Shown piece after piece: positions 20,623 to 60,700 of a stretch of DNA of 64,000 nt. The stretch's first letter is position 1. Each line of letters starts with the position of its first letter. The stretch is from contig NZ_CP048289.1 of NCBI RefSeq assembly GCF_014084105.1, positions 5,403,922 to 5,467,921 on the forward strand, written 5' to 3'. The notes below the pieces were generated by a model. It was not told the origin of the DNA. It worked only from the letters and a program-made list of their open reading frames with translations, and ran no database searches. The stretch comes from Streptacidiphilus sp. P02-A3a. GTDB lineage: Bacteria; Actinomycetota; Actinomycetes; Streptomycetales; Streptomycetaceae. A program made the translations under genes and the position numbers.

Positions 20623-20787
20623 CGGTCCTCCTCTGCGGGGTGGTCTCGGTGCACGCTACACGGCACTGCCCGGTCCGCCACCGGATCGCGCGGCGGGCGA
20701 CGCGGTGGTGGGACCCGCTGACCGGGGCCCGAGTGGGGACAGCGTAAGTTGACGACTCGACAGTGGTCGTCCCGCGAGAGGTCCCAC

Positions 20788-23622
20788 GTGCGCATCGCGT
20801 TCCCCGAGCAGCTGACCCGGCGGCTCACCGCTCGACTCACCGCGCGGCTCCCCGAACGGCTGCGCGCGCGTTCGCGGGCCGGTCGCCGACTCGCCGCGCT
20901 GCTGGCCGTACTGGCGGTGCTGGCCGTCGGCATCGGCGGCTACAGCGCGCTGGGCCAGGCCCCGCCGAAGGTGCGCCAGCAGGTGCTGAGCATCGCGGGG
21001 GTGCCCGAGCCGGACGGCACTCCGGTGCGGCTGGACGCCACCCTGTACCTGCCGCGGTCCAGCACCCCGCTGCCCGCGGTGGTGCTGGCGCACGGCTTCG
21101 GCGGCAGCAAGGACGACGAGGCCGCCGACGCGCTCTACCTGGCCCAGCACGGCTATGTGGCGCTGACCTACTCCGCGCGCGGCTTCGGCCACTCCGGCGG
21201 GCTGATCCACCTCGACTCGCCGCAGTACGAGGTGAAGGACGCGGAGCGGATGATCGACCTGCTCGGCACCCTGCCGGAGGTGCTGAAGGACGGCCCCGGC
21301 GACCCCCGGGTGGGCTTCACCGGTCCCTCCTACGGCGGTGCGCTGAGCCTGCTGGTGGCCGCCTACGACCACCGGGTGGACGCCATCGCCCCGCAGATCA
21401 CCTGGAACAGCCTGGGCGGCTCGCTGTTCGGCCAGGCGGCGACGTCCGGTCAGGGCACGGCCGGGCCCGGGGTGTTCAAGAAGGCCTGGGCCGGGGACTT
21501 CTTCGGCTCCGGGTCGGACGACGCCAGTGGGACCAACAGCGCGAGCGGCAGCAGCGGCACCGGCAACCCCTGCGGCCGGTTCGCGCCCGACATCTGCTCC
21601 GCCTACCGGGCCACCGCGGCCGGTGACGGCACGCCCGCGCCCGGGCTGCTGGGCCTGCTCGCCGCGTCCAGTCCGGCCGGGGTGCTGAACCGGATCGACG
21701 CGCCGACGCTGCTGGTCCAGGGCGAGGACGACTCGCTGTTCGGCCTCGACCAGGCCGACGCCAACGCCCGGGGCATCGCCGCCCACGGCACCCCCGTCAA
21801 GGTCGCCTGGTACTCCGGCGGCCACGACGCGCCCGGTACCGCCGCCGAGACCACCGAGCTGCGCTCGCTCACCCTGGCCTGGTTCGACCACTACCTCAAG
21901 CACCAGGGCCCGGCCCCGTCCGGCAGCTTCAGCTTCACCAAGACCGGCACCAGCCTGTCGTTGGAGAGCGGCACCGTCAGCAGTTCCGTGCTGACCGCTC
22001 CCGGCTACCCCGGGCTGCCCGGCGCCGCGCCCGCGCGCAGCACGCGGCTACGGCTGGACGGACCTGAGCAGACCGTGCTGGCCCCGGCCGGGGGCTATCC
22101 CGCGGCCACCACCAGCCTGCCCGGCCTCGGCGGGACGCTGTCCCAGCTCGCCACCGGCACCCCGGCGCTGGGGGCCGCCCTGGCCGGGCCGACCGACCAG
22201 CAGGCGGTGTTCACCAGCGCGCCGCTGACCGCGACCGTCCGCGACGTGGGCGCGGCCAGGGTCGCGCTGCGGGTCACCCCGGCCACCCCCGGTACCACCG
22301 ACGCCACGCTGTTCGCGAAGCTGTACGACCTCTCCCCCGACGGCAGCCAGAGCGTGCTGCCGAACCAGCTGGTCGCCCCGGTCCGGCTGACCGGGCTGAC
22401 CCCGGCGGGCACCATCGTCACCGTGGCGCTGCCGGGCGTGGTGCACGACTTCCCGGCCGGGGACCGGCTGCGGCTGGTGGTGTCCACCACCGACGCCGCG
22501 TACCAGCTGCCGCTGGACCCGCGCGGCTACCGGATCGCGCTGGCCGGGGGCGGCACCGTCAGCGTGCCGCTGGTGGCCGCGAACACCGACGACAGCGGCT
22601 CCACCACCGTGCTGTGGGCCATCGCCGCGGTGGCCGCGCTGATCGCGCTGGCGGCGGCGGCGCTGTGGCTGCGCCACCGCAGGCCCGGCGGCGGCATCGA
22701 CCTGGAGCCGGAACTGGCGGCGCTGCCGGTCTCCATCGCCGGGCTGGGCAAGGCGTACGGCGACGGCTTCCGCGCCGTCACCGACCTGAGTTTCACCGTG
22801 GAGGCCGGGCAGGTGCTGGGGCTGCTCGGCCCCAACGGCGCGGGTAAGACCACCACGCTGCGGATGCTCACCGGCCTGATCCAGCCGAGCTCCGGCGAGA
22901 TCCGGGTGTTCGGCCACCGGATCGTCCCCGGCGCGCCGGTGCTGTCCCGGGTCGGCGCGTTCATCGAGGGCCCCGGCTTCCTGCCGCACCTGTCCGGCCT
23001 GGACAACCTGACCCTGGCCTGGGCCGCCACCGGGCGTCCGGAGCAGGACGCCGACTTCAGCGCCGCGCTGGAGATCGCCGGGCTCGGCAAGGACCTGCAA
23101 CGCAAGGTCCGCACCTACAGCCAGGGCATGCGCCAGCGGCTGGCCGTCGCCCAGGCCATGCTGGGGCTGCCGGACCTGCTGATCCTGGACGAGCCGACCA
23201 ACGGCCTCGACCCGCCGCAGATCCGCGAGATGCGCGAGTCGCTGCGCCGCTACGCCGCCACCGGGCGCACCGTGGTGGTCTCCAGCCACCTGCTGGCCGA
23301 GGTCGAGCAGACCTGCACGCACTGCGTGGTGATGGCGCGCGGGCGGCTGCTGGCGGCCGGTCCGGTGGCCGAGCTGATCGGCGCGGCGGCCTCGGTCCAC
23401 ATCGACGTGGACCAGCCGGAGCGGGCGGCGGCGCTGCTGGCGGAACTGCCGGGGGTGCGCGAGGCCCGCGCCGGGGCCGACGGCACGCTGGTGGTCGACC
23501 TGGACCAGGTCCGGCCCGCCGAGGCGGTCCGGACGCTGGTGGACGCCGGGCTCTCGGTCGACCGGATCGCGCCCAGACGCCGCCTGGAGGACGTCTTCCT
23601 CGACCTGGTCCACGAAAGCTGA
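20788..23622 (+). CDS. Fusion of alpha/beta hydrolase (CocE/NonD-type) and ABC ATPase
   Basis: A 944-aa fusion. A basic start and one helix (LLAVLAVLAVGIGGYSALG, ~residues 35-55) precede a hydrolase of the X-Pro dipeptidyl peptidase/CocE type (~60-600). It has VVLAHGFGGSKDDE, nucleophile GPSYGGALS, an acid in QGEDDSLFG and a His in YSGGHDAPG. A jelly-roll-like region and a second helix (LWAIAAVAALIALAAAALWL, ~610-630) lead to an ABC ATPase (~650-944): Walker A GPNGAGKTT, signature YSQGMRQRLAVA, Walker B LLILDEPTNGLDP. Orientation places the hydrolase outside and the ATPase inside. GTG at 20788 after GAGAGG is preferred to the upstream TTG at 20749. The next gene is its permease. Confidence 0.88.
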   Translation: MRIAFPEQLTRRLTARLTARLPERLRARSRAGRRLAALLAVLAVLAVGIGGYSALGQAPPKVRQQVLSIAGVPEPDGTPVRLDATLYLPRSSTPLPAVVLAHGFGGSKDDEAADALYLAQHGYVALTYSARGFGHSGGLIHLDSPQYEVKDAERMIDLLGTLPEVLKDGPGDPRVGFTGPSYGGALSLLVAAYDHRVDAIAPQITWNSLGGSLFGQAATSGQGTAGPGVFKKAWAGDFFGSGSDDASGTNSASGSSGTGNPCGRFAPDICSAYRATAAGDGTPAPGLLGLLAASSPAGVLNRIDAPTLLVQGEDDSLFGLDQADANARGIAAHGTPVKVAWYSGGHDAPGTAAETTELRSLTLAWFDHYLKHQGPAPSGSFSFTKTGTSLSLESGTVSSSVLTAPGYPGLPGAAPARSTRLRLDGPEQTVLAPAGGYPAATTSLPGLGGTLSQLATGTPALGAALAGPTDQQAVFTSAPLTATVRDVGAARVALRVTPATPGTTDATLFAKLYDLSPDGSQSVLPNQLVAPVRLTGLTPAGTIVTVALPGVVHDFPAGDRLRLVVSTTDAAYQLPLDPRGYRIALAGGGTVSVPLVAANTDDSGSTTVLWAIAAVAALIALAAAALWLRHRRPGGGIDLEPELAALPVSIAGLGKAYGDGFRAVTDLSFTVEAGQVLGLLGPNGAGKTTTLRMLTGLIQPSSGEIRVFGHRIVPGAPVLSRVGAFIEGPGFLPHLSGLDNLTLAWAATGRPEQDADFSAALEIAGLGKDLQRKVRTYSQGMRQRLAVAQAMLGLPDLLILDEPTNGLDPPQIREMRESLRRYAATGRTVVVSSHLLAEVEQTCTHCVVMARGRLLAAGPVAELIGAAASVHIDVDQPERAAALLAELPGVREARAGADGTLVVDLDQVRPAEAVRTLVDAGLSVDRIAPRRRLEDVFLDLVHES

Positions 23623-24669: not shown

Positions 24670-24675
24670 TAGGAT
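24670..24675 (+). promoter_or_regulatory. -10 element of the Met-leader transcript
   Basis: TAGGAT matches the actinobacterial TAGRRT -10 consensus and ends 6 bp before the ATG at 24682. Transcription would therefore start at or next to the ATG, giving a leaderless mRNA. No convincing -35 hexamer is seen. Confidence 0.5.
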
Positions 24676-24681
24676 CCGTCC

Positions 24682-24747
24682 ATGCCGAACACCGCCACCC
24701 TCGCCATGATGCGAATGATGCCCCCGCTACCGGAGGCGCTTCGCTAG
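24682..24747 (+). CDS. Methionine-rich leader peptide (candidate attenuator peptide)
   Basis: A 21-codon ORF reading MPNTATLAMMRMMPPLPEAL plus R, ending in TAG. Five of 21 codons are Met, four of them in the block ATG ATG CGA ATG ATG (24706-24720). A Pro-rich stretch with the rare Leu codon CTA follows. The ATG lies where transcription from TAGGAT should begin, so translation would be leaderless. The stop codon sits inside an 18-nt palindrome, and a terminator lies 26 nt further on. The layout copies classical amino-acid leader peptides. The main gene downstream encodes a SAM hydrolase that would release methionine. Confidence 0.62.
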   Translation: MPNTATLAMMRMMPPLPEALR

Positions 24748-24784
24748 CGAAGCGGTGTGCGCGCAGGACGCCACGGACCTCCGG
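24730..24784 (+). promoter_or_regulatory. Candidate antiterminator with 18-nt palindrome
   Basis: CCGGAGG (24730-24736, leader codons 17-19) is perfectly complementary to CCTCCGG (24778-24784), which belongs to the 5' arm of the terminator. The pairing would enclose the perfect palindrome at 24737-24754 (CGCTTCGCTAGCGAAGCG) and block the terminator. A ribosome stalled on the Met codons leaves 24730-24736 free. A ribosome reaching the stop at 24745 covers it. Confidence 0.5.
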
Positions 24785-24803
24785 AAACGGGGGTCCGTTT
24801 TTT
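24773..24803 (+). terminator. Intrinsic terminator (attenuator) upstream of SAM hydrolase
   Basis: An 11-bp stem (arms 24773-24783 and 24788-24798, one G-T pair) closed by a GAAA tetraloop and followed by an uninterrupted T-run to 24803. Such a complete stem-plus-U-tract is unusual in this GC-rich DNA. It lies between the leader ORF and the main gene rather than after a gene, as expected for an attenuator. Confidence 0.75.
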
Positions 24804-24907
24804 GTTGCCCCGATACCTGCGGCTGGTCCCTCCGCCTGTCTTTTCCTCACCCTTTTCTCCCGCTTTTCCCGACAATCGCTTCCGAACACCAGAAGGCGAA
24901 GGCCCTC

Positions 24908-25750
24908 ATGTCCCACCGCCCGGTCATCTCTCTCACCGACTGCGCCGATCCGAACGCCGTGGCCCGGCAGTCCGCCCGGATCGCGGCGCTGTTCGGCACC
25001 ACGCCGAGCATCCTGCCGCTGGCCGGTCCCGACCCGGAGGGCGTGGCCGCACTGACCCTGCTGGACCTGCTGCGCGCCACCGACCTGGTCGGCGGCCCGA
25101 CGCACCCCTCGGTGGTGCTGGTCAACATCGCGCCCCGGGACGGCCATTGGCCCAACGGCGTGCCCTTCTGCTACTTCTGGCACGGCGAGCACCTGGTGAT
25201 CAGCACCCTCACCCCCCGGGTGCTGGCGCCGCTGCGGACGTACTTCGGGCTGGAACTGGTCCAGGTCACCGACGTGCGCGAGGTGGTGCAGGCCGCCGCC
25301 GGGCAGTGGGCCGAGCTCTCCGCCGCGCAGGTCGAGGAGATCGTCCGGACCCAGTTCCGCAGCCTGTGGTACGTGCCGCTGCTGGCCCGCTGGCTGGTCG
25401 ACGGCCGCCCGGTGCCCGCGACGGCCGCGCCGGTGCCGGACGCGGCCGACACGACGGCGCCGGTGCGGGTCGCGGTGGTCGACAACTTCGGCAACTGCAA
25501 GCTGGACCGGCCGGCCGCCGCCGTCTTCGGCCGGGTCGGCGCGGACGCGCTGCACCTGCGCCGGCACCACGACGGCGGGACGATCGCGGTGCGCGGCTTC
25601 GACCGGCTGCCGGACGTGCCGCGTGGCGAGCCCGGCATCACCACCGGCAGTTCCGGCGTCGGCTTCGCCGAACTGGTGGTCCGCGGCGGCTCCGCCGCGG
25701 AGCTGTTCGGCCTGCGCGAGGGCGACCCGCTGCCGCAGCTGACCAGCTGA
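24908..25750 (+). CDS. SAM hydroxide adenosyltransferase-like (DUF62) protein
   Basis: A 280-aa protein resembling SAM hydrolases of the chlorinase/fluorinase superfamily, which split SAM and water into adenosine and methionine. The C-terminal barrel is the clearest match: VRVAVVDNFGNCKLD, GSSGVGFAELVVRGGSAAEL, then LREGDPL. The N-terminal half (VISLTDCADPNAVARQSARI, then VVLVNIAPRDGHWPNG and CYFWHGEHLVIS) is less like the classical enzymes, so this may be a distinct subfamily. The ATG at 24908 follows GAAGGCGAAGG. The 226-bp leader holds the Met-rich ORF and attenuator, which fits a methionine-linked function. Confidence 0.68.
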   Translation: MSHRPVISLTDCADPNAVARQSARIAALFGTTPSILPLAGPDPEGVAALTLLDLLRATDLVGGPTHPSVVLVNIAPRDGHWPNGVPFCYFWHGEHLVISTLTPRVLAPLRTYFGLELVQVTDVREVVQAAAGQWAELSAAQVEEIVRTQFRSLWYVPLLARWLVDGRPVPATAAPVPDAADTTAPVRVAVVDNFGNCKLDRPAAAVFGRVGADALHLRRHHDGGTIAVRGFDRLPDVPRGEPGITTGSSGVGFAELVVRGGSAAELFGLREGDPLPQLTS

Positions 25751-25783: not shown

Positions 25784-26004
25784 GAGACCTTGGCGTTACC
25801 GGATGGTAGCCGACCCGATTGACACCGCCCGAGGCCTCCCGGAATGCTGAAACGCATGTCCGGAGCTCTCGCCTTGGTACGTCGCCGCCACGTTGACCAC
25901 GCACGTTGCGCCGCCGATCTGTGTCTCTGAACCCACGCACGATCCGCGACTCCGCGCTTCCCCGTACCGTCCCTCCCGGACTCCACCGCAAAGGACCCAC
26001 CCTC

Positions 26005-26898
26005 GTGACCCGTGCCCGTATAGCCTTCGCCGCCTCCGTGGGGGCCGCGCTCGTGCTGACGGCCTCGGCGTGCGCGCCGCAGCCCAGCAGCACCGCGAAC
26101 GCCTCCAGCAGCTCGTCCACCAGCGCCTCCGCCGCCGCGTCCGCCTGCTCGACCAGCAGCCCGGACCTCTACAAGTCGGGGCAGCTGACCGTGGCCACCG
26201 ACTCCCCGGCCTACTCCCCCTGGTTCGACAACAACACCCCGGCCGACGGGAAGGGCTTCGAGAGCGCGGTGGCCTACGCGGTGGCCGCCAAGCTCGGCTT
26301 CAGCAAGAGCCAGGTGAAGTGGGTGGTCGAGCCCTTCGACAACTCCTACGCGCCGGGTGCGAAGAACTTCGACTTCGACGTCAACGAGATCTCGATCACC
26401 CCGCAGCGGGCGCAGGCGGTGGACTTCTCCACCGGCTACTACACCGCCGACCAGGGCGTGCTGGTACTGAACAACTCCAAGTACGCCAAGGCCGACTCGC
26501 TGGCGGCACTCAAGGGCGCCCGGATCGGCGTGCAGGTGGCGACCACCAGCTACCAGGCGGTCCAGGACGAGATCAAGCCGACCCACCAGCCCAGCGTCTA
26601 CAACACCACCAACGACGAGGTGAACGCGCTGCAGGACGGTCAGATCGACGCCATCGTGACCGACATGCCGACGGTCTTCTACCTGGCCAGCGCGGAGCTG
26701 AGCCACGGCCAGATCCTCGGCGAGTTCAACTACGACAGTGCCACGCCGGAGCAGTTCGGCCTGCTGCTGAAGAAGGGCAGCGGGCTGACCAGCTGCGTGG
26801 ACCAGGCGATCGCCGGGCTCAAGGCCGACGGCTCGCTGGCCAAGATCACCGAGCAGTGGCTGTCCGCCTCCGCCGACGTCCCGCACCTGAAGCAGTAG
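26005..26898 (+). CDS. Amino-acid ABC transporter substrate-binding lipoprotein
   Basis: A 297-aa family 3 (polar amino acid) solute-binding protein. The signal peptide (IAFAASVGAALVLTASAC) ends in a lipobox cysteine, followed by a Ser/Ala linker. The binding fold starts at SGQLTVATDSPAYSPWF and contains GFESAVAYAVAAKLG, ITPQRAQAVDFSTGYY and GARIGVQVATTSYQ. The GTG at 26005, 9 nt after AAAGGA, places the signal correctly; the open frame runs back to 25906. It forms an operon with permease and ATPase. Proximity to the Met-attenuated gene hints at methionine or a related amino acid, but specificity is not readable. Confidence 0.9.
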   Translation: MTRARIAFAASVGAALVLTASACAPQPSSTANASSSSSTSASAAASACSTSSPDLYKSGQLTVATDSPAYSPWFDNNTPADGKGFESAVAYAVAAKLGFSKSQVKWVVEPFDNSYAPGAKNFDFDVNEISITPQRAQAVDFSTGYYTADQGVLVLNNSKYAKADSLAALKGARIGVQVATTSYQAVQDEIKPTHQPSVYNTTNDEVNALQDGQIDAIVTDMPTVFYLASAELSHGQILGEFNYDSATPEQFGLLLKKGSGLTSCVDQAIAGLKADGSLAKITEQWLSASADVPHLKQ

Positions 26899-26904
26899 CC
26901 GGCA

Positions 26905-27804
26905 GTGGAACACGAGACCACGGCCGCGCTGAACAAGCAGGCCACCGGGCAGGACGAGGACTACCGGCCGAGCCCCCGGCAGGAGGAGCGGCAGCGGTTC
27001 CGCCGCTCCCGCAAGCGGCGCGACACCTGGATCGCCACGCTGTGCACCGTGGCGTTCCTGGTGGCGCTCTGCGCGGCCGTGGTCGCCTCGCCGGGCTGGT
27101 TCCGGGTACACACCCTGTTCCTGAACGGCGCGGAGTTCCGCAAGACCTTCCCCACGATCCTGCACGGCTTCTGGCTGAACATCCAGATGTTCCTGATCGC
27201 CGAGGTGCTGATCCTGGCCCTCGGGCTGCTGATCGCGCTGGTCCGGGCGACCCGGGCGCCCGGACTCCAGCCGCTGCGGCTGGCCGCGACCGTCTATGTG
27301 GACGTGTTCCGGGGCGTGCCGACGCTGCTGCTGGTCTTCCTGATCGGCTACGGGCTGCCCGCGCTGCAACTCCAGGGCACGCCCTCGCAGCCGTGGGTGC
27401 TGGGCACGATCGCGCTGGTGCTCTCGTACTCCGCCTACGTGGCGGAGGTGTTCCGGGCCGGGCTCAACTCGGTGCACCCGGCGCAGCGCAACGCGGCCCG
27501 GGCGCTGGGGCTGAGCGAGCCGCAGACGCTGCGGCACGTGATCCTGCCGCAGGCGGTGCGCAACGTGGTGCCGCCGCTGCTGAACGACTTCATCGCGCTG
27601 CAGAAGGACACCGCCATGGTGGCCGTGCTGGGCCCGCTGGAGGCGCTGCGCGAGGCCCAGATCAACGCGGACTACGACTTCAACTACACCCCCTACCTGG
27701 GTGCGGCGCTGCTGTTCATCGCGGTCACCATCCCGCTGAGCAGGTACGCCGACCGGTTGCAGCGGCGCGCCGCGCAACGGCAGCGGGCGGAGGCGGCACG
27801 ATGA
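26905..27804 (+). CDS. Amino-acid ABC transporter permease
   Basis: A 299-aa inner-membrane permease of the HisMQ/GlnP type. A charged cytosolic head of about 45 residues precedes TM1 (IATLCTVAFLVALCAAVVAS). The permease domain contains TILHGFWLNIQMFLIAEVL, VYVDVFRGVPTLLLVFLIGY, and the EAA loop AARALGLSEPQTLRHVILPQ. The C-terminus is basic (LQRRAAQRQRAEAAR). GTG at 26905 lies six nt after the upstream stop, and its own stop overlaps the ATPase start as ATGA, so the three genes are translationally linked. Confidence 0.9.
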   Translation: MEHETTAALNKQATGQDEDYRPSPRQEERQRFRRSRKRRDTWIATLCTVAFLVALCAAVVASPGWFRVHTLFLNGAEFRKTFPTILHGFWLNIQMFLIAEVLILALGLLIALVRATRAPGLQPLRLAATVYVDVFRGVPTLLLVFLIGYGLPALQLQGTPSQPWVLGTIALVLSYSAYVAEVFRAGLNSVHPAQRNAARALGLSEPQTLRHVILPQAVRNVVPPLLNDFIALQKDTAMVAVLGPLEALREAQINADYDFNYTPYLGAALLFIAVTIPLSRYADRLQRRAAQRQRAEAAR

Positions 27805-28541
27805 ACGAGGCACTGCTGCGGATCAGGGGCCTGCGCAAGCAGTACGGCTCGCGCCTGGTCCTGCGCTCGATCGACCTGGACGTCGCCGAGCACCAGGTGG
27901 TCTGCCTGATCGGCGGTTCCGGATCGGGCAAGTCCACGCTGCTGCGCTGCGTGGACCTGCTGGACCAGGTCGACGACGGCACCATCCACCTGGGCGGGAC
28001 CGAGCTGACCGACCCGCGCCTGGACGCCAACACCGCCCGGCGCCGGATCGGCGTGGTGTTCCAGTCGTACAACCTGTTCCCGCACCTGAACGTGCTGGAC
28101 AACATCACCCTGGCCCCGATCCGGGTGCACCGGGTGCCGCGACGGCAGGCGGAGGACGCGGCCCGGGAGCTGCTGGACCGGCTGGGGCTGGCGGACAAGG
28201 CGCAGGACTACCCGGACCGGCTCTCCGGCGGCCAGCAGCAGCGGGCGGCGATCGCCCGCGCCCTGGCCACCGAACCGGAGCTGCTGCTCTTCGACGAGAT
28301 CACCTCGGCGCTGGACCCGGAGCTGGTCGGCGAGGTGCTGGACGTGGTCACCGATCTCAAGCAGCACGGGCTGACCATCCTGATGGCCACCCACGAGATG
28401 GGCTTCGCCCGGCACGCCGCCGACCAGGTCTGCTTCCTGGAGGACGGGGTGATCCGCGAGCGGGGCAGCGCGGAGCAGGTCCTCAACGACCCGCAGCACG
28501 CCTCGACGCAGCGCTTCCTGTCGCGGGTGCTGAACCACTGA
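27801..28541 (+). CDS. Amino-acid ABC transporter ATP-binding protein
   Basis: A 246-aa GlnQ/HisP-type ATPase. Walker A is GGSGSGKST, the Q-loop is VVFQSYNLFPHLNV, the signature is LSGGQQQRAAIARAL, Walker B is LLLFDEITSALDP and the switch His is in MATHEMGFA. The full family length is present. It overlaps the permease gene by 4 bp (ATGA) and ends the transporter operon; the convergent ATP-grasp gene stops 28 bp away. Confidence 0.94.
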   Translation: MNEALLRIRGLRKQYGSRLVLRSIDLDVAEHQVVCLIGGSGSGKSTLLRCVDLLDQVDDGTIHLGGTELTDPRLDANTARRRIGVVFQSYNLFPHLNVLDNITLAPIRVHRVPRRQAEDAARELLDRLGLADKAQDYPDRLSGGQQQRAAIARALATEPELLLFDEITSALDPELVGEVLDVVTDLKQHGLTILMATHEMGFARHAADQVCFLEDGVIRERGSAEQVLNDPQHASTQRFLSRVLNH

Positions 28542-40290: not shown

Positions 40291-41141
40291 AAGCCGGAGC
40301 CGGACTTGCGGCCGTGGCGGCCCTCGCGGACCAGGCGCAGCAGCAGCTCGCACGGGCGGCAGCCCTCGTCGCCGGTCCGTTCGTGCAGCACCCACAGCGA
40401 GTCGACCAGGTTGTCCAGGCCGATCAGGTCGGCCGTGCGCAGCGGTCCTGTGGGGTGTCCCAGGCAGCCCTGCATCAGCGTGTCCACGGCCTCGGCGGTG
40501 GCGGTGCCCTGCTCCACCACCCGGGCCGCGTCGTTGATCATCGGGTGCAGGATGCGGCTGGTCACGAACCCCGGCGCGTCGCGGACCACGACCGCCTCCC
40601 GGCGCAGCGCCGCCAGCAGCGAGGCCACCGACGCCATCACCGGGTCGCCGGTCCGGCGCCCGCGGATCACCTCGGCCGTTCTGATCAGGTACGGCGGGTT
40701 CATGAAGTGGGTGCCGACGAGCTCGGCCGGGCGCTCGACCGCCCCGGCCAGTTCGTCCACCGGGATCGAGGAGGTGTTGGTGATCAGCGGCGTCCCCGGC
40801 CGGACCAGTGCCGAGACCTCGGCCAGGACCTTGGCCTTGAGCTCCGCGTTCTCGGTGATCGCCTCGATCACCGCCGCGGCTCCGGCGGCCGGGTCGGTGC
40901 CGGTGCCGGTGGTCAGCTCGCCCGGGGCGGTGTCCGGCGGCAGGGCGCCGAGCAGGTGGGCCAGCCGCAGTTCCTCGGCGATCCGGTCGCGGGCCCGGGT
41001 CAGCCGCTCCGGGTCGACGTCGACCAGGTGGACCGGCAGGCCGTGGCCGAGGGCGAGGGTGGTGATGCCGACCCCCATCACCCCGGCTCCGAGGACGACG
41101 AGCGGGTTGGCTGGGTCGTACGGTGGCGGTGCTGTGGTCAT
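40275..41141 (-). CDS. 3-hydroxyacyl-CoA dehydrogenase-type enzyme (FkbK-like)
   Basis: A 288-aa enzyme of the 3-hydroxybutyryl-CoA dehydrogenase family acting on the ACP-bound glyceryl unit. The NAD motif is VVLGAGVMGVGITTLAL, the catalytic region AELVGTHFMNPPYLIRTAEV (GTHFMNP), and APGFVTSRILHPMINDAARV, GHPTGPLRTADLIGLD and GRKSGSGFYDY follow. The ATG overlaps the terminal PKS stop codon as ATGA, so extender-unit genes are translated together with the PKS. Full length. Confidence 0.93.
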   Translation of the reverse strand: MTTAPPPYDPANPLVVLGAGVMGVGITTLALGHGLPVHLVDVDPERLTRARDRIAEELRLAHLLGALPPDTAPGELTTGTGTDPAAGAAAVIEAITENAELKAKVLAEVSALVRPGTPLITNTSSIPVDELAGAVERPAELVGTHFMNPPYLIRTAEVIRGRRTGDPVMASVASLLAALRREAVVVRDAPGFVTSRILHPMINDAARVVEQGTATAEAVDTLMQGCLGHPTGPLRTADLIGLDNLVDSLWVLHERTGDEGCRPCELLLRLVREGRHGRKSGSGFYDYH

Positions 41142-44100
41142 TCGGCCTTGCTCCTCGGGGATCGTCGGGCGGTGGCTGCGACTCCGGCGGCGGTTCCGGG
41201 GTCGGGGTCGGGGGCGGGGTCGGGTCCGGGGGCGGGCAGGACGGTCTCCAGCCAGTCGGCGACGGCCCGGCCGGTGGTCTCGACATGCTGTTCCATGATC
41301 GAGAAGTGGTCGCCGGGCACGTCCGCCACCGTGTGCGCGCCGGGCCAGCTGGACCGCCACTCACCGGCGGCGGCGGACGGCGTACCCAGCGGCGTGGAGG
41401 CACGTACCAGCAGTACCGGCGCGCTGACGGCGGGCGGCACCCAGTCGTCCAGCAGCCGGAAGTACCGGCCCATCGCGGTCAGCCGGGTGCCGTCCATCGG
41501 GGCCGCGCGCTCCTCGCGGGCGAACATCCCGCCCAGCAGGACGTCGTTGAACTGGGTGATGCCCTCGTTGTCGGACAGGTAGGTGTCGAGCAGCACCACC
41601 GCCGCGGGCCCGCTCCCGATCCGCTCCAACTCGGCGGCCACGCCGTGCGCGAGGGTGCCGCCGGAGGAGGAGCCGACCAGTACCAGCCGCCTTTCCGGCA
41701 GGGCTTGACGGATCGTCAGTGCCTGGTAGCGGAGCAGCGTGGCCATGTCGGCGGGCAGCGGCTGGTCCGCGGTGAACCCCGGGGCGTCCAGCGCGCTGAC
41801 GCCGTAGCGGCCGCGCAGGCAGGCGGCGAAGCGGGCGTACTGGTGCGCGCCGCCGAGGGCGACCACGGAGCCGAGGCAGACGACCACCGGGGCGTCGGCC
41901 TCGGGTGCGCTGATCCGCAGCAGTCGCGGGCCGGTCCCGGTCGCCAGCTGCTCCTCGGCGCTGTGGAACCGCGGCCGCAGCGCGGAGGCGTGTTTCAGCA
42001 GCGCGATGCCCTCGTCGGTCTGGCCGAGCGCGCAGGCCTGGCGGAACAGCAGGCTGACCGGATCAGCGGCGGCCTCGTCGTCGGCGCCGGGTGCCGGCGC
42101 GGCGGCGGTCGGGGTGTGCTCGGCGGGGGTGGCCCCGGCGGTGGCCATGGACTGGGCGAGCAGTGCCGCCAGTCCGGCCGGGGTGCCGCTGTCCAGGACC
42201 GCCGAGGGCCGCAGCCGCACGCCGGTCGGCCCGGCCAGCCGGTTGCGCAGTTCGACGGCGGTCAGCGAGTCGAATCCGACCGAGAGGAAGCTGTCGGTGT
42301 CGGACAGCGCCGCCGCGTCGCTGTGGCCGAGCACCGCCGCGGCCTCGGTGCGGACCAGCTCGCGCAGCAGTTGCTCGCGCTGCTCCGGGGCGGCCGCGGC
42401 GAGCCGCTGCCCGGGTGAGCTGTCGACCGCCGGGCGGCGGCGGGCCCGGACCAGCGAGCGCAGCAGCGGGGGGACCGGCTGGTCCCGGTAGGCGGCCAGG
42501 TCGAGCCGGATCGGGACGGCCAGCGCCAGGCCGGTGCCGAGCGCCGCGTCGAACAGCGCCGTGCCCTGTGCGTCGCTCAGGGCGCCGACGCCGCTGCGCT
42601 CCATCCGCTGCTGGTCGGTCCCGGCCAGGTCCGCGGTCAGGCCGCTGCGCCGCGCCCACAGGCCCCAGGCCAGCGAGGTTCCCGGCAGGCCCAGCCGCCG
42701 CCGCTCGGTGATCAACGCGTCCAGGGCGGCGTTGGCGGCGGCGTAGGCGGACTGACCGGGGCTGCCGAAGACGCCCGCCGCCGAGGAGTAGACGACGAAG
42801 GCGGAGAGGTCGGCCGTGCGGGTCAGCTCGTGCAGGTGCCAGGCGGCGTCGATCTTGGGCCGCAGCACGCCGCTCAGCCGCTCCGGGGTGAGGGCGTGCA
42901 GCAGGCCGTCGTCGAGTGCGCCCGCGGTGTGCACCACCGCCCGCAGCGGGTGCTGCTCGGGGATCTGCGCCAGCGCCGCGGACAGCTGTTGACGATCAGT
43001 CACATCACAGCTGATGGAAATGAGTTCCGCCCCCTGAGTGGCGAGTTCGGCGGTGAGCCGCGCCAGCTCGGGGCGGTCGGCGCCGCGTCGGCTCAGCAGC
43101 CGCAGGTGGCGCACGCCGTGCTCGGCCACCAGGTGCCGGGCCAGCGCGGCGGCCAGCGCGCCGCCGCCGCTGAGCAGTACCGTCCCCTCGGCGTCGAACC
43201 CGCTGAGGCCGTCGGGGACGCCGGTGGCCGACGGTGCGGCGGCGGGGTGCGCGCGGGCCAGTCGGGGCGCGTGCGGGACTCCCCCGCGCAGCGCCAGTTG
43301 CGGCTCCTCGGCCGACAGTACGGCGTCCAGCGCCCCGGCGGTGCCGTCCGGACCGTCGGTGTCCAGCAGCAGGAACCGGTCCGGGTGTTCCAGTTGGGCG
43401 GAGCGGAGCAGGCCCCAGACAGCCGCCGCGCCGAGGTCGGGTCGCGGCCCGGGTGCCTGTGCCGCGCCCCGGGTGAGCACCACCAGCGGGACCTGGCCGA
43501 ACCGCTCGTCGTCCAGCCAGTCGCGCAGCCGCCCGAGGACGGTGGCGACCGCGGTGTGGACGGCTTCCGGGCCGGGAGCGGCGGCGGGCGGGCAGAGCAG
43601 CAGCGCGGCGTCGGGGGTCCCGCCGTCCAGGGGCACGGTGGCGAATTCGGGCGGCAGCAGTCGCGCGTCACCGGGGCCGAGCAGCGCCCAGCGGCGCGCG
43701 GGGACCGGGTCCGGCCGGGCCGGGAGCGGGGTCCACTCCAGCTGGAACAGCGCGTCCGCCGGGGTCCCCGGCTGCTGGTTCCGGGCGGCGCGCAGCAGCA
43801 GCGAGCCGACGGTCGCGACCGGGTTCCCGGCCGGATCGGTGATCCGCAGCGACACCGCGTCCGGGCCGTCCGACCGCAGCGCCACCCGGAGCACCGGCGC
43901 GGCGGAGGGTTCGAGGACGACCTGCTGCCAGCTGAAGGGCAGTGGCACGCCCGCTTCGGCCGGTGCCGCCGCCCGCGTGCGCAGGCCGGTGGTCTGCAGG
44001 GCGGCGTCGAGCAGCGCGGGGTGGACCGCGAAGCCGCCGCGACCGGCACCGGACAGCCCGGCCGGGAGCGCCACCTCGGCGAACACCTCGCCGAAGCGGT

Positions 44101-47100
44101 CACCGGCCGCTTCGGGGCCGCCGCGCCAGGCCGCGCGCAGTCCGCGGAAGGCCGGGCCGTACTCGATGCCCTGCGCCTCCAGCAGGCCGTAGAGCTCGTC
44201 CAGGTCGACCGGGACGGTCCCGGGCGGCGGCCACGGGGCGGGCTCGGCCGGGCGGTGCGCGGGGTCGTCGACGCCGAGGACGCCGTCCGCGTGGCGGGTC
44301 CACGGCTGGTCCGGCTCGGCCTGTTCCAGGGACTGCGGCCGGGAGTGGAACTCGACCGGACGCCGCCCGGCCTCGTCCGGCGGCCCGACCAGCAGCCGCA
44401 GCTGCACCCCGTCGGCGGCCTCGGCCGGGAGCAGCAGCGGTGCGGCCAGGGTCAGTTCCTCCACCACTGGGCAGCCGAGCCGGCGTCCGGCGTGCGCGGC
44501 CAGTTCCAGGAAGGCCACCCCGGGCAGCAGCGCGGTACCGGAGACCGCGTGGTCGGCCAGCCACGGATGGGTGCCGAGTGACAACCGTCCGGTGAACAAC
44601 GTGCCTGCCCCGTCCGGTAGTTCGACGGCGGCGCCGAGCAGCGGGTGGCCTGCGTCGGCCTGCCCCACGGACTGCGGATCGCCCGCCGTCGGGGGCGCGT
44701 CCAGCCAGTAGCGCTGCCGCTGGAAGGGGTACGTCGGCAGCTCGGTGTGCCGGGCCCCGGTTCCGGCGTAGAGGGGTTCCCAGGCCACCGGCAGGCCGAC
44801 CACCTGCGCCGCGGCCAGGGACAGCAGCAGTCGGTGCGGGCCGCCGTCGTCGCGGCGCAGGGTGTCCAGCACCACGGTGTCCGCGGCGCCGGCGTCGGCG
44901 GCCGTGTCCTCGGTCCCGAAGGTGAGCGTCGGATGCGGGCTGACCTCAAGGAACGTCCGGTGACCGGCGTCGAGCAGGCGTTGCGTGGCCTCCTGGAAGC
45001 GGACGGTGCGGCGCAGGTTGCGGTACCAGTACTCGGGCCCGAGCGCGGCGGGGGCGATCCAGTCCGCGTCGACGGTGGACAGCATCGGGACGGTTCCGGC
45101 GCGGGGGGTGATCCCGGCCAGTGCCGCGCACAGGTCCGCCCGGACCGACTCCACCCCGGCGCTGTGCGAGGCGTGGTCGACCGGCATCCGCCAGGCCATC
45201 ACCCCGTCCGCGGTGAGGTTGTCCACCAGGGCGTCGAGCTCCTCCTCGGAGCCGGTCACGGTGACCGTCCTCGGGCCGTTCACCGCCGCTATGGACAGCT
45301 TTTTGTGACGATTCGTCAGATACTCGCCGAGTTCCGCCTCGGGCAGCAGCACCGCCGCCATCGCGCCTCCGGGCAGGCTCGCCAGGGCCCGGCTGCGGGC
45401 CACCGCCACGAGTGCCGCGTCCTCCAGCGAAAGGGCGCCCGCGACGCAGGCGGCGGCCACCTCGCCCTGGCTGTGCCCCACCACGGCCACCGGCTCCACG
45501 CCGTGGCCGCGCCACACCGCCGCCAGCGACACCATCACCGCGAACAGCACCGGCTGCGCCACCTCCACCCGCTCCAGCGTGGGTGCGCCCGGCGCACCCC
45601 GGAGCACCGCGCTCGGAGACCAGTCCAGGTGTCGGCCGAGCGCCCGCTCGCAGTCGGCCATCCGCTCCGCGAACAGCGTGCAGGAGTCCAGCAGTTCGGC
45701 TCCCATTCCGGGCCAGTGGGCGCCCAGGCCGGGGAAGACGAACACGCCTGTGCGGCCGCCCTGCGGGGCGGTTCCGCGCACTGCCGACGGGGGCCGCTCG
45801 CCCCGGGCGAGGGCGGCGAGTCCGTCGAGCAGTTCGGCCCGGTCCGCACCGACGACCACCGCCCGCTCGGCGAACCGGGAGCGGCCGAGTGCCAGCGAGC
45901 GGCCGACGTCGTGCGGGTCGGTCCCCGGCTCTGCGGACAACTGGGCGTGCAGTGACCCGGCCTGGGCGCGCAGCGCGGCGTCCGTCCTGGCCGACAGCGG
46001 CCAGGCGACCGGTCCGCCGGGCGGCGCCTCCCCGGGCGGCCCCGGATCGGCGGGCACCGACTCCAGGATCAGGTGGGCGTTGGTGCCGCTGGCACCGAAG
46101 GAGGAGACTCCGGCCCGGCGCGGCTGCCCGGCCTCCGGCCAGGGCGCCGCCGAGGTGAGCAGCGAGACCTGGCCCTGGGACCAGTCCACCTGGGAGCTGG
46201 GGCGGTCGATGTGCAGGGTCCTCGGCAGCAGGCCGTGCCGCATCGCCAGCACCGTCTTGATCACCCCGCCGACCCCGGCCGCCGCTTGAGTGTGCGTCAG
46301 GTTCGACTTCAGCGAGCCGACCCGCAACGGCCGGTCCGCGGGCCGGTCCTGGCCGTAGACCGCGAGCAGCGCCTGGGCCTCGATCGGGTCGCCGAGCACC
46401 GTTCCGGTGCCGTGCGCCTCCACCGCGTCCACCTCGGCCGGGCGCAATCCGGCGCGCTCCAGGGCCTGTTGGATCACCCGCTGCTGCGCGGGGCCGTTGG
46501 GCGCGGTCAGCCCGTTGCTCGCGCCGTCCTGGTTGACGGCGGAGCCGCGCACCAGCGCCAGTACCGGATGCCCGTTGCGGCGGGCGTCGGAGAGCCGCTC
46601 CAGCAGCAGCAGCCCGACGCCCTCGCCGAAGCCCGCGCCGTCGGCGGCGTCGGAGAAGGACTTGCTGCGCCCGTCGGGGGCGAGTCCGCGCTGGCGGGAG
46701 AAGCCGATGTACAGGCCGGGGGTGGACATCACGGTGGCCCCACCGGCGAGCGCGAGACTGACCTCCCCGGCCCGCAGCGCCTGGCAGGCGAGGTGCACCG
46801 CGACCAGGGAGGAGGAGCAGGCGGTGTCCAGCGTCACCGCCGGGCCCTCCAGGCCCAGCAGGTAGGAGATCCGGCCGGAGGCCACACTGGGGATGCTGCC
46901 GGTGCCGAGGAAGCCCTCCAGCTCCTCGGGCGCCCGGCCGAGCCGGGACGCGTACTCGCTGTAGATGACGCCCGCGTAGACGCCGGTGCGGCTGCCGCGC
47001 AGCGTCAGCGGGTCGATCCCGGCCCGCTCCACCGCCTCCCAGGCGGTCTCCAGCAGCAGGCGCTGCTGGGGGTCCATCGCCAGCGCCTCCCGGGGGAGAT

Positions 47101-47466
47101 ACCGAAGAACGCCGGGTCGAACCCGCAGGCGTCGTCGAGGAAGCCGCCCTCGCGGACGTAGAGGGTGCCGGGCGCGTCCGGATCGGTGTCGAAGCGGCTC
47201 TCGACGTCCCAGCCCCGGTCGGCGGGGAACGGGCCGACCGCGTCCCGCTCCTTGACCAGCAGCTCCCACAGGTCCTCCGGGGTCGCCACGCCGCCCGGGT
47301 AGCGGCAGCTCATGGCCACGACGGCGACCGGCTCGGCGGCGTCCTCCCGGTGCTGCCGGAGCTGCTGCCGCAGCCGCTGGTTGTCCAGCAGCGAGGCCCG
47401 CAGCGCGGCGACCACCTGCTCGGTTCCGGTCTGCTCGCTGCCTGCCGCTTCGGTACCTGTGGACAT
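41138..47466 (-). CDS. Terminal type I PKS: KS-AT-DH-KR-ACP-TE, with a one-base frameshift in the KS
   Basis: Terminal module, 2109 aa if the frameshift is corrected. A docking coiled coil (residues ~10-40) precedes KS (~41-465, Cys217 in VDTACSSSL), AT (~570-870, Ser666 in GHSQGEVAA), DH (~940-1230, [10 protein letters not shown] and [10 protein letters not shown]), KR (~1420-1600), ACP ([10 protein letters not shown]) and TE (~1836-2080, GSSSGG, GDHFSIM). The frame breaks at a G5 run (47092-47096, plus strand): FFGISP is followed by the wrong phase until one base is added. The AT motif is HASH (765-768) rather than YASH, a candidate for methoxymalonyl. The KR glycine motif reads SGGGALAA. 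Start ATG at 47466. The predicted role is addition of C1-C2 and macrolactonisation. Confidence 0.9.
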
Positions 47467-47488
47467 CGTCATTCCCTCCCGCGCTGGA

Positions 47489-57670
<10,182 letters not shown>

Positions 57671-57713
57671 CGGACACCGCCGCCTTCTTCGTCGGGAATG
57701 GTCCACGCGAGGC

Positions 57714-60700
57714 TCATGAGATCCCCAACTGCCGGTCGATGTAGGCGAATACCTCGTCGTCGGTGGCTGCCTCGATGCGGTCGGCCGAGAGCGGCTGCGC
57801 CTGGTCGACGCCGGGCTCCAGCCGGGTCAGCGCCTGCCGCAGCCGCTGCGCCAGCTGTTCGCGGATGCCCGGGTCCGGTGGCAGCCCGGTCCAGCGCGCC
57901 TCCAGCCGGTCCAGCTCGGACAGCACCGCGGCCTCGGCGGACGGCCGGTCCGCCGTGGTCCGGGCGAGCAGGTGCCGGGCCAGGGCCTCCGGGGTGGGGT
58001 GGTCGAAGACCAGCGCGGCGGGCAACCGCAGACCGGTCGAGGTCGTCAGCCGGTTGCGCAGTTCCACGCCGGTGAGCGAGTCGAACCCGATCTCCTTGAA
58101 CGGCCTTGCGGGCCGCACCAGTTCCGGTGAGCTGTGCCCGAGCACGGCCGCCGCGCTGCCGCGTACCAGGTCCAGCAGCACCCGGTACGCCTCCGCCTCG
58201 GGCAGCACGGCCAGTTGGTCGGCCATCGAGCGGACCGCCAGGGCCGGGGCGGCGGTTCGGGCCCGGCCGGGGCGGAGCAGGCCGCGCAGCACCGAGGGCA
58301 GCCGTTCGGCCGAGCGCAGCGCGGACTGGTCGATCCTGGCCGCCAGTCGGTAGGCGTCGGGCCCGAGCAGCGCCGCGTCGAACAGCGCCAGCCCCTCCGC
58401 CGAGGACAGTGCCCCGGCGCCGCCGGAGACCCCGGCGGTCATCGTGCTGCGCTGCTGCCAGAGCCCCCAGCCGATGGACACCCCCGGCCGTCCCGCCGCC
58501 CGCCGTTCGGTGGCCAGGGCGTCCAGTACCGCGTTGGCCGCCGCGTAGTTGGCCTGTCCGGCGGCGCCGAACAGGGCCGCCCCGGAGGAGAACAGCACGA
58601 AGGCAGCCAGGTCGGCGTCCCGGGTCAGCTCGTCCAGCAGCAGCGCGGCCTCGGCCTTGGGCCGCAGCACCCGATCGAGCTGATCCGGCGTCATGTCGCC
58701 CACCAGGCCGTCGTCGAGGACCCCGGCGACGTGCACCACCCCGGTCAGCGGATGGTCGGCGGGGACGGCCGCGAGCAGCGCGGCCAGGGCTCCCCGGTCG
58801 GCCACGTCGCAACCGGCCACGGTCACCCGGGCACCGTGTTCGGACAGCTCCGCCAGCAGGGTTGACATGCCGTCAGCCGTGCCGCCGCGTCGCCCGGCGA
58901 GCAGCAGGTTCCGTACGCCGTGCCGGGTGACCAGGTGCCGGGCCAGGAGTTGACCGAGGGTGCCGGTGCCCCCGGTGACCAGCACCGTGCCGTCCGGATC
59001 CAGCGGGACCGGGAGCAGCAGCACGTTCTTGCCGGTGCCCCGGGCCTGGCTGAGGTGGCGCAGGGCGCGCGGCGCCCGGCGGATGTCCCAGCCGGTGACC
59101 GGCAGCGGGCTGAGCACACCCCGCTCGAACAGGTCGAGGATCTCGGTGAGCATCTCGCCGACGCGCCGTGCTCCGGCCTCCATCAGGTCGAACGCGCGGT
59201 AGTGGACGCCCGGGTGGCGGTCGGCGACCTCGGCCGGGTCGCGGACGTCGGTCTTGCCCATCTCCACGAACCGCCCGCCCCGGGGCAGCAGCCGCAGCGA
59301 GGCGTCGACGAACTCCCGGGCCAGGCTGTCGAGGACGAGGTCCACCCCGCGTCCGCCGGTGGTCCGCAGGAACCGCTCGGCGAAGTCCACGGACCGGGTG
59401 GAGGCGATCTGCTCCTGGTCCAGGCCGGCTGCCCGGAGCACGCCCCACTTGGCCGGCTGGGCGGTGCCCAGGACGGTGGCCCCGGCGTGCCTGGCCAGTT
59501 GCACGGCCGCCATGCCGACTCCCCCGGCCGCCGAGTGGATCAGCACCGACTCCCCGGCGCGCAGCCCGCCCAGGTCGAACAGGCCGTAGTAGGCGGTGAG
59601 GAACGCCACCGGCACGGCGGCAGCCTGGGCGAAGGACCAGCCGGAGGGCATCGGGGCGATGGTGGTCCGGTCGGCGATCGCGACCGGTCCGAAGGCGCCG
59701 CTGAAGACGCCCATGACCCGGTCGCCGGGGGCCAGGTCGGCCACGTCGGGGCCGACCTCCAGCACCACGCCCGCGCCCTCGCTGCCCAGCCCGGTCTGGT
59801 CCGGGTCCAGGCCCAGGGTGGCGATGACGTCGTGGAAGTTGAGTCCGGCGGCGCGGACGGCGATCCGCACCTCACCTCCGGCCAGCGGCGCCAGGGCGGC
59901 CGGGGCCGGGACCAGCGCCAGGCTCTCCCACGTGCCCCGGCCGCCGCCGTCCAGCCGCCAGGCCCGCTGGTCCGGCGGCGGCACCAGGTCGGATCCGCCG
60001 CGTTCCGGCCTGGCCAGCCGGGGCAGCAGCAGGGTGTCGCCGCGTACCGCCAGCTGCGGTTCGCCGCCGGCCAGGGCGGTCGGCAGCAGCCGGGTCGGGG
60101 CGTCGTCCCGTTGGTCGAGGTCGAGCAGCAGGAACCGGTCCGGGTGCTCGGCCTGGGCCGAGCGCAGCAGGCCCCACAGGGCCGCCTGGGCCGGGTCGGC
60201 CGGACCGTCGGCCGGGCCGGTGCGGACGGCGTTCCTGGTGAGCAGCGCCAGCCGGGCCTCGGCGAACCGCTCGTCGGCGAGCCACCGCCGGACCAGGGCG
60301 AGCCCGTCGCGGGCGGTGGCGCGGACCCGGTCGGCCGGGTCGGCGAGTCCGGGTGTCGGGCAGGCGGCGACGACCGTGCCCGGCGGACTGGTGCCGCGCT
60401 CGGCGTGCAGGGCGTCCAGGTCCGGCCAGCCGACCGTGCCGGGGACGGCGTCACCGAGGGCCACCCAGTCGGGCGCCGGTTCGCCCCCGGCCCCGGTCCG
60501 CTCCTCGGGCGGCCAGTCCAGCCAGTCCAGCCCGAACAGCAGGTCAGCGGTGTCCACGGTCCCGGTGGGCGCTCCGGCTGCCAGCGGCCGGAGCAGGAGT
60601 GAGCCGACCGTGAGTACCGGCTGTCCGGCCAGGTCGTGGACGCTGAGGGCGACCGCGTCCGCGCCGTCGGCGGCGAGCCGGACCCGGAGCGAGGTGGCCC

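Follow-up and report, generated by a model that had tools for sequence, protein, structure and literature searches.

The window, a stretch of 64,000 nucleotides from Streptacidiphilus sp. P02-A3a, carries on its plus strand a gene for a 280-aa protein of the DUF62 fold (SAM_HAT_C; 24908..25750) that contains no internal Met, and this gene is preceded by a compact leader region. A -10 promoter box, TAGGAT (24670..24675), is separated by a 6-nt spacer from the ATG at 24682, which opens a leader ORF of 21 codons (24682..24747, peptide MPNTATLAMMRMMPPLPEALR followed by a stop codon). Within this ORF lies a run of putative control codons, ATG ATG CGA ATG ATG (24706..24720), inside which is the octamer TGCGAATG (24710-24717), invariant among the leaders described below. 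An 18-nt palindrome, CGCTTCGCTAGCGAAGCG (24737..24754), straddles the leader stop codon, and further downstream there is an intrinsic terminator (3:4; 24773..24803), i.e., an 11-bp stem including one G-U pair and closed by a GAAA loop (24773-24798), with six T residues at 24798-24803. The CCGGAGG strand (24730-24736) is complementary to CCUCCGG (24778-24784), so that a 2:3 antiterminator is possible (24730..24784), within which the hairpin of the palindrome is retained. The octamer apart, these elements had been named in the original prediction, and each was found where it had been placed. In addition, the leader can form a 1:2 protector hairpin (24683..24765), in which 24711-24726 pairs with 24731-24744 and is closed by the pairing of 24683-24704 with 24747-24765. 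The window leader RNA folds more stably than shuffled sequences do (z = -3.41).

In the surroundings of the element, a single ORF at 20749-23622 fuses an X-Pro peptidase/alpha-beta hydrolase part to an ABC transporter ATPase, and an ABC-2 permease follows it. Behind the controlled gene, and outside the attenuator, a second leaderless-looking leader peptide (MSGALALVRRRHVDHARCAADLCL and a stop codon; 25856..25930, plus strand), which contains Cys, begins after 105 nt and stands ahead of the next operon, which encodes an amino-acid ABC transporter (SBP_bac_3, permease and ATPase; 26005..28541, plus strand) whose permease most resembles cystine permeases, though with a score below the cut-off. 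No terminator was seen by eye at this second leader (25856-25930). When 44 loci were searched with a strict pattern, its peptide (RRRHVD[HN]xRCAADLC) was present behind the gene in 14 (the window, L001, L003-L006, L009-L011, L015, L017, L018, L021 and L041). Four plus-strand matches to the Rfam ASpks sRNA were also observed in the window (46307-46381, 51860-51934, 56567-56641 and 63024-63098); three of the four lie opposite large minus-strand ORFs at 41141-57826, and the matches probably correspond to conserved coding sequence rather than to RNAs.

When genome contigs were searched for matches to the downstream protein, 65 loci were obtained (L001-L065). The octamer TGCGAATG was found upstream of the same gene in the window and in 43 of the 44 actinobacterial loci (L001-L043, from Streptomyces, Kitasatospora, Streptacidiphilus, Actinospica, Kribbella, Jiangella and Catellatospora), 107-281 nt 5′ of the protein match in L001-L043. 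It was not found upstream of L044 (Kitasatospora MBT63), a locus that covers protein residues 124-280 only, and it was absent upstream of the 21 distant homologues L045-L065, two of which have the octamer within the gene. These distant homologues, mostly titled Patescibacteria, belong to the same divergent DUF62 branch and have the invariant residues in common, but lack the leader. In 44/44 leaders the octamer is read in frame as (A/C)TG CGA ATG: the CGA codon is invariant, the codon preceding it is ATG in 42 leaders and CTG in 2, and the codon after CGA ATG is ATG in 26 and CTG in 18. The leader is conserved beyond chance level, since each segment between the leader ATG and the U-run has a mean column identity of 0.82-1.00 among 22 Streptomycetaceae sequences, as against 0.58 far upstream and 0.57 past the U-run. 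In one locus, L041, the leader lacks 1 nt and the gene frame is broken, possibly by assembly error.

The leader and the gene travel together. The gene was present in 7 of 150 Streptomycetaceae genomes and the leader pattern in 8, which are the same 7 plus one stray, and a covariance model of the leader (R1) matched in 15 of 394 Streptomycetaceae genomes, with the gene directly behind in 15/15. The window's own genome has one exact core and 13 further cores with one mismatch. The 7 gene-bearing genomes contain 14 core matches, i.e., 7 leaders (one per genome) and 7 others, and a boxed leaderless start accompanies all of the former and none of the latter. Of the 396 genomes in a phylum-wide sample, only the window's own carried the gene, and the search of phage and plasmid records for a relative of the protein gave no match at E 1e-5. 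As for the start itself, a TANNNT box is located 6-8 nt 5′ of the leader start in 44/44 leaders and at 0 of the 719 other ATG/GTG triplets of the same regions; the leader starts were chosen partly by this box, and hence the fair wording is that each region has one boxed start, in frame with the octamer. A Shine-Dalgarno-like motif was observed at 2 of 44 leaders. From these sequence features we infer that transcription starts at 24682, the A of the leader ATG, and that the message is leaderless.

We analyzed the Met content of the leaders and of the proteins behind them. Among 43 leaders (L041, with its frameshift, was omitted), 24 have 4 internal Met codons, 12 have 2, 5 have 5, and single leaders have 3 and 1; the Kribbella leaders have only 2, and L027 only 1. 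Relative to the Met rate of neighbouring ORFs (272/20,478 residues in 68 ORFs, 1.33%), the excess gave a Fisher p of 3e-8 over four clade representatives (window, L022, L034 and L029, with single-leader p values of 0.0001, 0.02, 0.0001 and 0.03), of 2e-7 with the poorest Kribbella leader and of 2e-6 at a 2% background, in a test that is partly circular because the octamer that defines the set holds one ATG. An unplanned observation was that the proteins behind the leader are depleted in Met, with 25 Met (0.22%) among the 11,596 internal residues of 42 proteins, L041 and L043 being left out because their frames are broken or run on; 18 of these proteins have no internal Met, 23 have one and 1 has two. 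The homologues without the leader have 1.31% (72/5,498; 21 proteins), close to the neighbour rate. When all 20 residues were ranked against the neighbours, Met was the most depleted (log2 -2.62), followed by Lys (-1.5), and Arg was at +0.20. The downstream protein and its neighbours have 0.24 and 0.58% Met, respectively, in Streptomycetaceae, where the neighbours are themselves Met-poor, 0 and 1.15% in Actinospica, 0.09 and 1.76% in Kribbella, 0.43 and 2.37% in Jiangella, and 0.36 and 2.24% in Catellatospora. Taken alone, the window protein (0 Met in 279 internal residues) is unremarkable (p 0.06 at the window's rate), and 13% of the neighbour ORFs have at most 0.3% Met. The Met-poor downstream proteins would thus support, but not prove, methionine as the signal, the sequences being related.

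Three clades that have the octamer in common and unlike stem sequences present the same layout, with a 1:2 protector, a 2:3 antiterminator and a 3:4 terminator. The antiterminator strands are CCGGAGG/CCUCCGG in Streptomycetaceae and GUGCGG/CCGCAC in Jiangella (CCGCAU in L031), and in Kribbella they lie around CGGAGG; the stems of Kribbella, Jiangella and Catellatospora differ in sequence though the octamer is kept. A terminator was parsed in 43/44 leaders, the exception being L041, and these 43 were cut before the 3′ arm of the terminator and folded with a ribosome at the Met codons or with no ribosome. In 42/43, a ribosome placed on the Met codons left 6 or more bases of the terminator 5′ arm paired with the leader, whereas with no ribosome none of the bases of this arm were so paired in 37/43. 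The observed pair count was reached by 16-32% of shuffles in Streptomycetaceae other than L002, which with an earlier placement of the ribosome mask showed no pairing between the terminator 5′ arm and the leader. Full-length folds were computed for 13 representative leaders in three states, namely with the ribosome mask over the Met codons, with the mask over the stop, and with no ribosome. In the stalled state the antiterminator was part of the minimum-energy fold in 3/13 leaders with the earlier mask (window, L025 and L032) and in 0/13 with the later one, the terminator being preferred in 10/13 and 13/13, respectively. The minimum-energy fold is therefore mostly the terminator, and in the leaders where it is, the antiterminator would have to win kinetically.

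The 2:3 duplex is moderately above that of shuffled leaders, with p values of 0.011 (window), 0.24 (L022), 0.23 (L025) and 0.31 (L029), and a combined Fisher p of 0.027, 0.0002 or 0.006 depending on the representatives. For the energy of the stalled state, which stands out less from the shuffles, p was 0.12 in the window, and the Fisher values were 0.08, 0.002 or 0.01 by representatives; for the 1:2 pairing the combined p was 0.001, 9e-6 or 0.02, again by representatives. The 1:2 protector has 88% of its cells paired and almost no covariation. The original prediction had proposed an alignment of the leaders as its own check, and the in-frame octamer of all 44 leaders and the conservation up to the U-run agree with it, but the compensatory stem changes that it expected did not appear within Streptomycetaceae and Actinospica: in an alignment of 22 sequences from these groups, changes on both sides numbered 0 for 2:3 and 1 for 1:2, no better than in shuffles. 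We consider the terminator and the leader ORF firm and the 1:2 protector arm fairly firm, and the putative 2:3 antiterminator is likely.

The gene product had been called a SAM hydrolase. Its AlphaFold model (pLDDT 88; alignment of 43/66 sequences) was compared with known structures, and the best 21 rows were DUF62 proteins, chlorinase and fluorinase, with VIA Z values of 14.7-18.8, while the next unrelated fold scored 6.7. According to the model, then, the protein has the DUF62 fold, in common with the (R)-SAM hydrolase/SAM hydroxide adenosyltransferase structures (DUF62; PDB 2wr8, 2zbv and 22uy; VIA Z up to 18.8), from which it differs in being only 13-21% identical to the DUF62 rows. The C-terminal Pfam domain SAM_HAT_C was matched in 43/43 members at E<=1 and in 35/43 at E<=1e-5, the N-terminal domain PF01887 was unmatched in all 43 members scanned, and the NCBIfam (R)-SAM hydrolase model scored 16.8 against a cut-off of 350. 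The residues invariant among 43 aligned sequences include N73, A75, P76, R77, G79, N83, G84, F150, R151, S152 and the DNFGNCK stretch 192-198. The canonical DUF62 catalytic residues are Asp-Arg-His, and the title of the PDB entry 22uy also suggests an Arg. In a remote profile alignment with 9 canonical actinobacterial DUF62 proteins (9 of 21 loci parsed), Ala75 and Arg151 fall at these Asp and His positions and Pro82/Asn83 at the Arg, so that in the controlled protein the catalytic Asp and His have apparently been replaced. Thus the fold stands, but with PF01887 unmatched and Ala75 and Arg151 apparently at the catalytic Asp and His positions a SAM hydrolase activity is not secured.

From the ORF, its codons, the possible pairings, the conservation, the gene linkage and the Met-poor product, we propose that the element is most probably a ribosome-mediated transcription attenuator, off by default, that reads the methionine supply. 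Transcription would begin with the first base of the leader ATG, and a ribosome would initiate on the leaderless message. With no ribosome present, the 1:2 hairpin would join the leader to the strand that follows the Met codons, and the terminator would form; since the CGGAGGCGCUUCGC strand is able to base-pair with the leader codons, termination is the outcome predicted by default, with no need for translation. When methionine is ample, the ribosome would reach the stop codon and cover CCGGAGG, so that the terminator would form again. When elongator Met-tRNA is short, the ribosome would stall at ATG ATG CGA ATG ATG and block 1:2, and CCGGAGG would then pair with the terminator 5′ arm (2:3), so that RNA polymerase would read on into the gene for a protein that needs almost no methionine. 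Here the stalling, the read-through and the signal are what we infer. The attenuator logic, the leaderless start and the methionine signal of the original prediction thus gain comparative support from the octamer, the boxed starts, the gene linkage and the Met-poor proteins, and its scheme has to be completed with the 1:2 protector arm, which it had missed.

A methionine attenuator is awkward, since a shortage of this same amino acid should also lower initiation at the leader. The present one is compact and leaderless-looking, with a frozen codon core, and the CGA of that core deserves attention. In the rival explanation that survives best, although we think it unlikely, the switch is the same and the trigger is another one, i.e., a stall at CGA, a rare codon, because of its wobble decoding or of the supply of tRNA-Arg, or else a stall caused by the nascent chain or by a ribosome-targeting antibiotic, the Met codons being secondary. 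CGA is invariant in the leaders yet makes up 40 of the 945 Arg codons (4.2%) of the downstream genes, and the Met codons that flank it can be replaced by Leu on either side (2/44 and 18/44 leaders, as given above). Furthermore, in folds without a ribosome the GAA of the octamer is paired in Streptomycetaceae and Jiangella and unpaired in Kribbella and Catellatospora, so that pairing does not fully explain the invariance of CGA. Against this rival, however, the controlled protein shows a depletion of Met and none of Arg, only one Arg codon is fixed in the leaders, and CGA is not rare elsewhere in them (18 of the 66 other Arg codons). We regard as quite improbable that the ORF encodes a functional small peptide, with the hairpin merely as its terminator and the downstream gene under its own promoter: the peptide is well conserved inside Streptomycetaceae and the 72-246 nt between the leader stop and the start of the gene (or of the tblastn match) leave room for a promoter, but across clades little of the peptide is retained except M/L-R-M-M/L, and conservation is at background after the U-run, where a conserved promoter would be expected. 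Least credible of all is a ligand-binding riboswitch, e.g., for SAM, with an accidental ORF, for although DUF62 proteins act on SAM (PMC12120602) and Streptomyces has SAM riboswitches (PMC8079986), all Rfam families were below the cut-off (the best weak matches had E 0.7, one being a Phe leader) and visual comparison of the clades showed the codon core as the only RNA sequence common to all of them.

Within the methionine attenuator that we prefer, the invariant CGA-AUG pair may tentatively be read, although we would not count on it, as a stalling element: slow, inosine-decoded CGA would park the first ribosome, and the next AUG would sample elongator Met-tRNA apart from the initiator. If true, such a stall would solve the problem of a methionine shortage that also blocks initiation. 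The same tentative reading makes the leader and its Met-free DUF62 relative with an altered active site a cassette of patchy distribution that responds to methionine scarcity. The proposed attenuator itself suggests methionine shortage as a condition in which this Met-poor branch of the fluorinase/DUF62 fold may be used.

Leaderless attenuators are already known in Streptomyces, a point on which the original prediction, which took such a peptide to be undescribed for this family, needs correction: leaderless leader peptides of attenuators have been reported in Streptomyces lividans, namely trpL, leuL, ilvL, thrL and a putative methionine one, metL (PMC8079986). The kind of switch is thus known, whereas its methionine version seems new. 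Besides S. lividans metL, no methionine leader-peptide attenuator and no leader peptide of a SAM hydrolase were recognised in the open-access literature, which is weak evidence of absence since subscription papers were mostly outside its scope, and a 2005 survey did not see a conserved RNA structure at the methionine operons of actinobacteria. As for the canonical enzyme, DUF62 from Salinispora is reported to hydrolyse (R,S)-SAM (PMC12120602). The S. lividans leaders (PMC8079986) have in common with the window a short leaderless ORF that precedes amino-acid genes and contains codons for the amino acid that regulates them, and some of them have hairpins and a U-rich stretch, as here; metL differs in that it precedes metNIQ, encodes MSTTSDRTPATEATTTPGARCMCRRMCAF and has no typical Rho-independent terminator, and none of 61 Streptomycetaceae genomes matched an exact pattern built on the metL core. 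In mycobacteria, the polycysteine leaderless sORF attenuators (Canestrari et al. 2020, as cited in PMC9094748) likewise signal to the operon behind them how much of a sulphur amino acid is available, in their case Cys instead of Met, and PMC1262725 gives no conserved terminator hairpin for the mycobacterial cys leaders, in contrast to the terminator and possible antiterminator found here. With the classical actinobacterial trp, trpS and leuS attenuators (PMC1262725), the window element has in common the leader peptide, the control codons, the terminator and the putative antiterminator.
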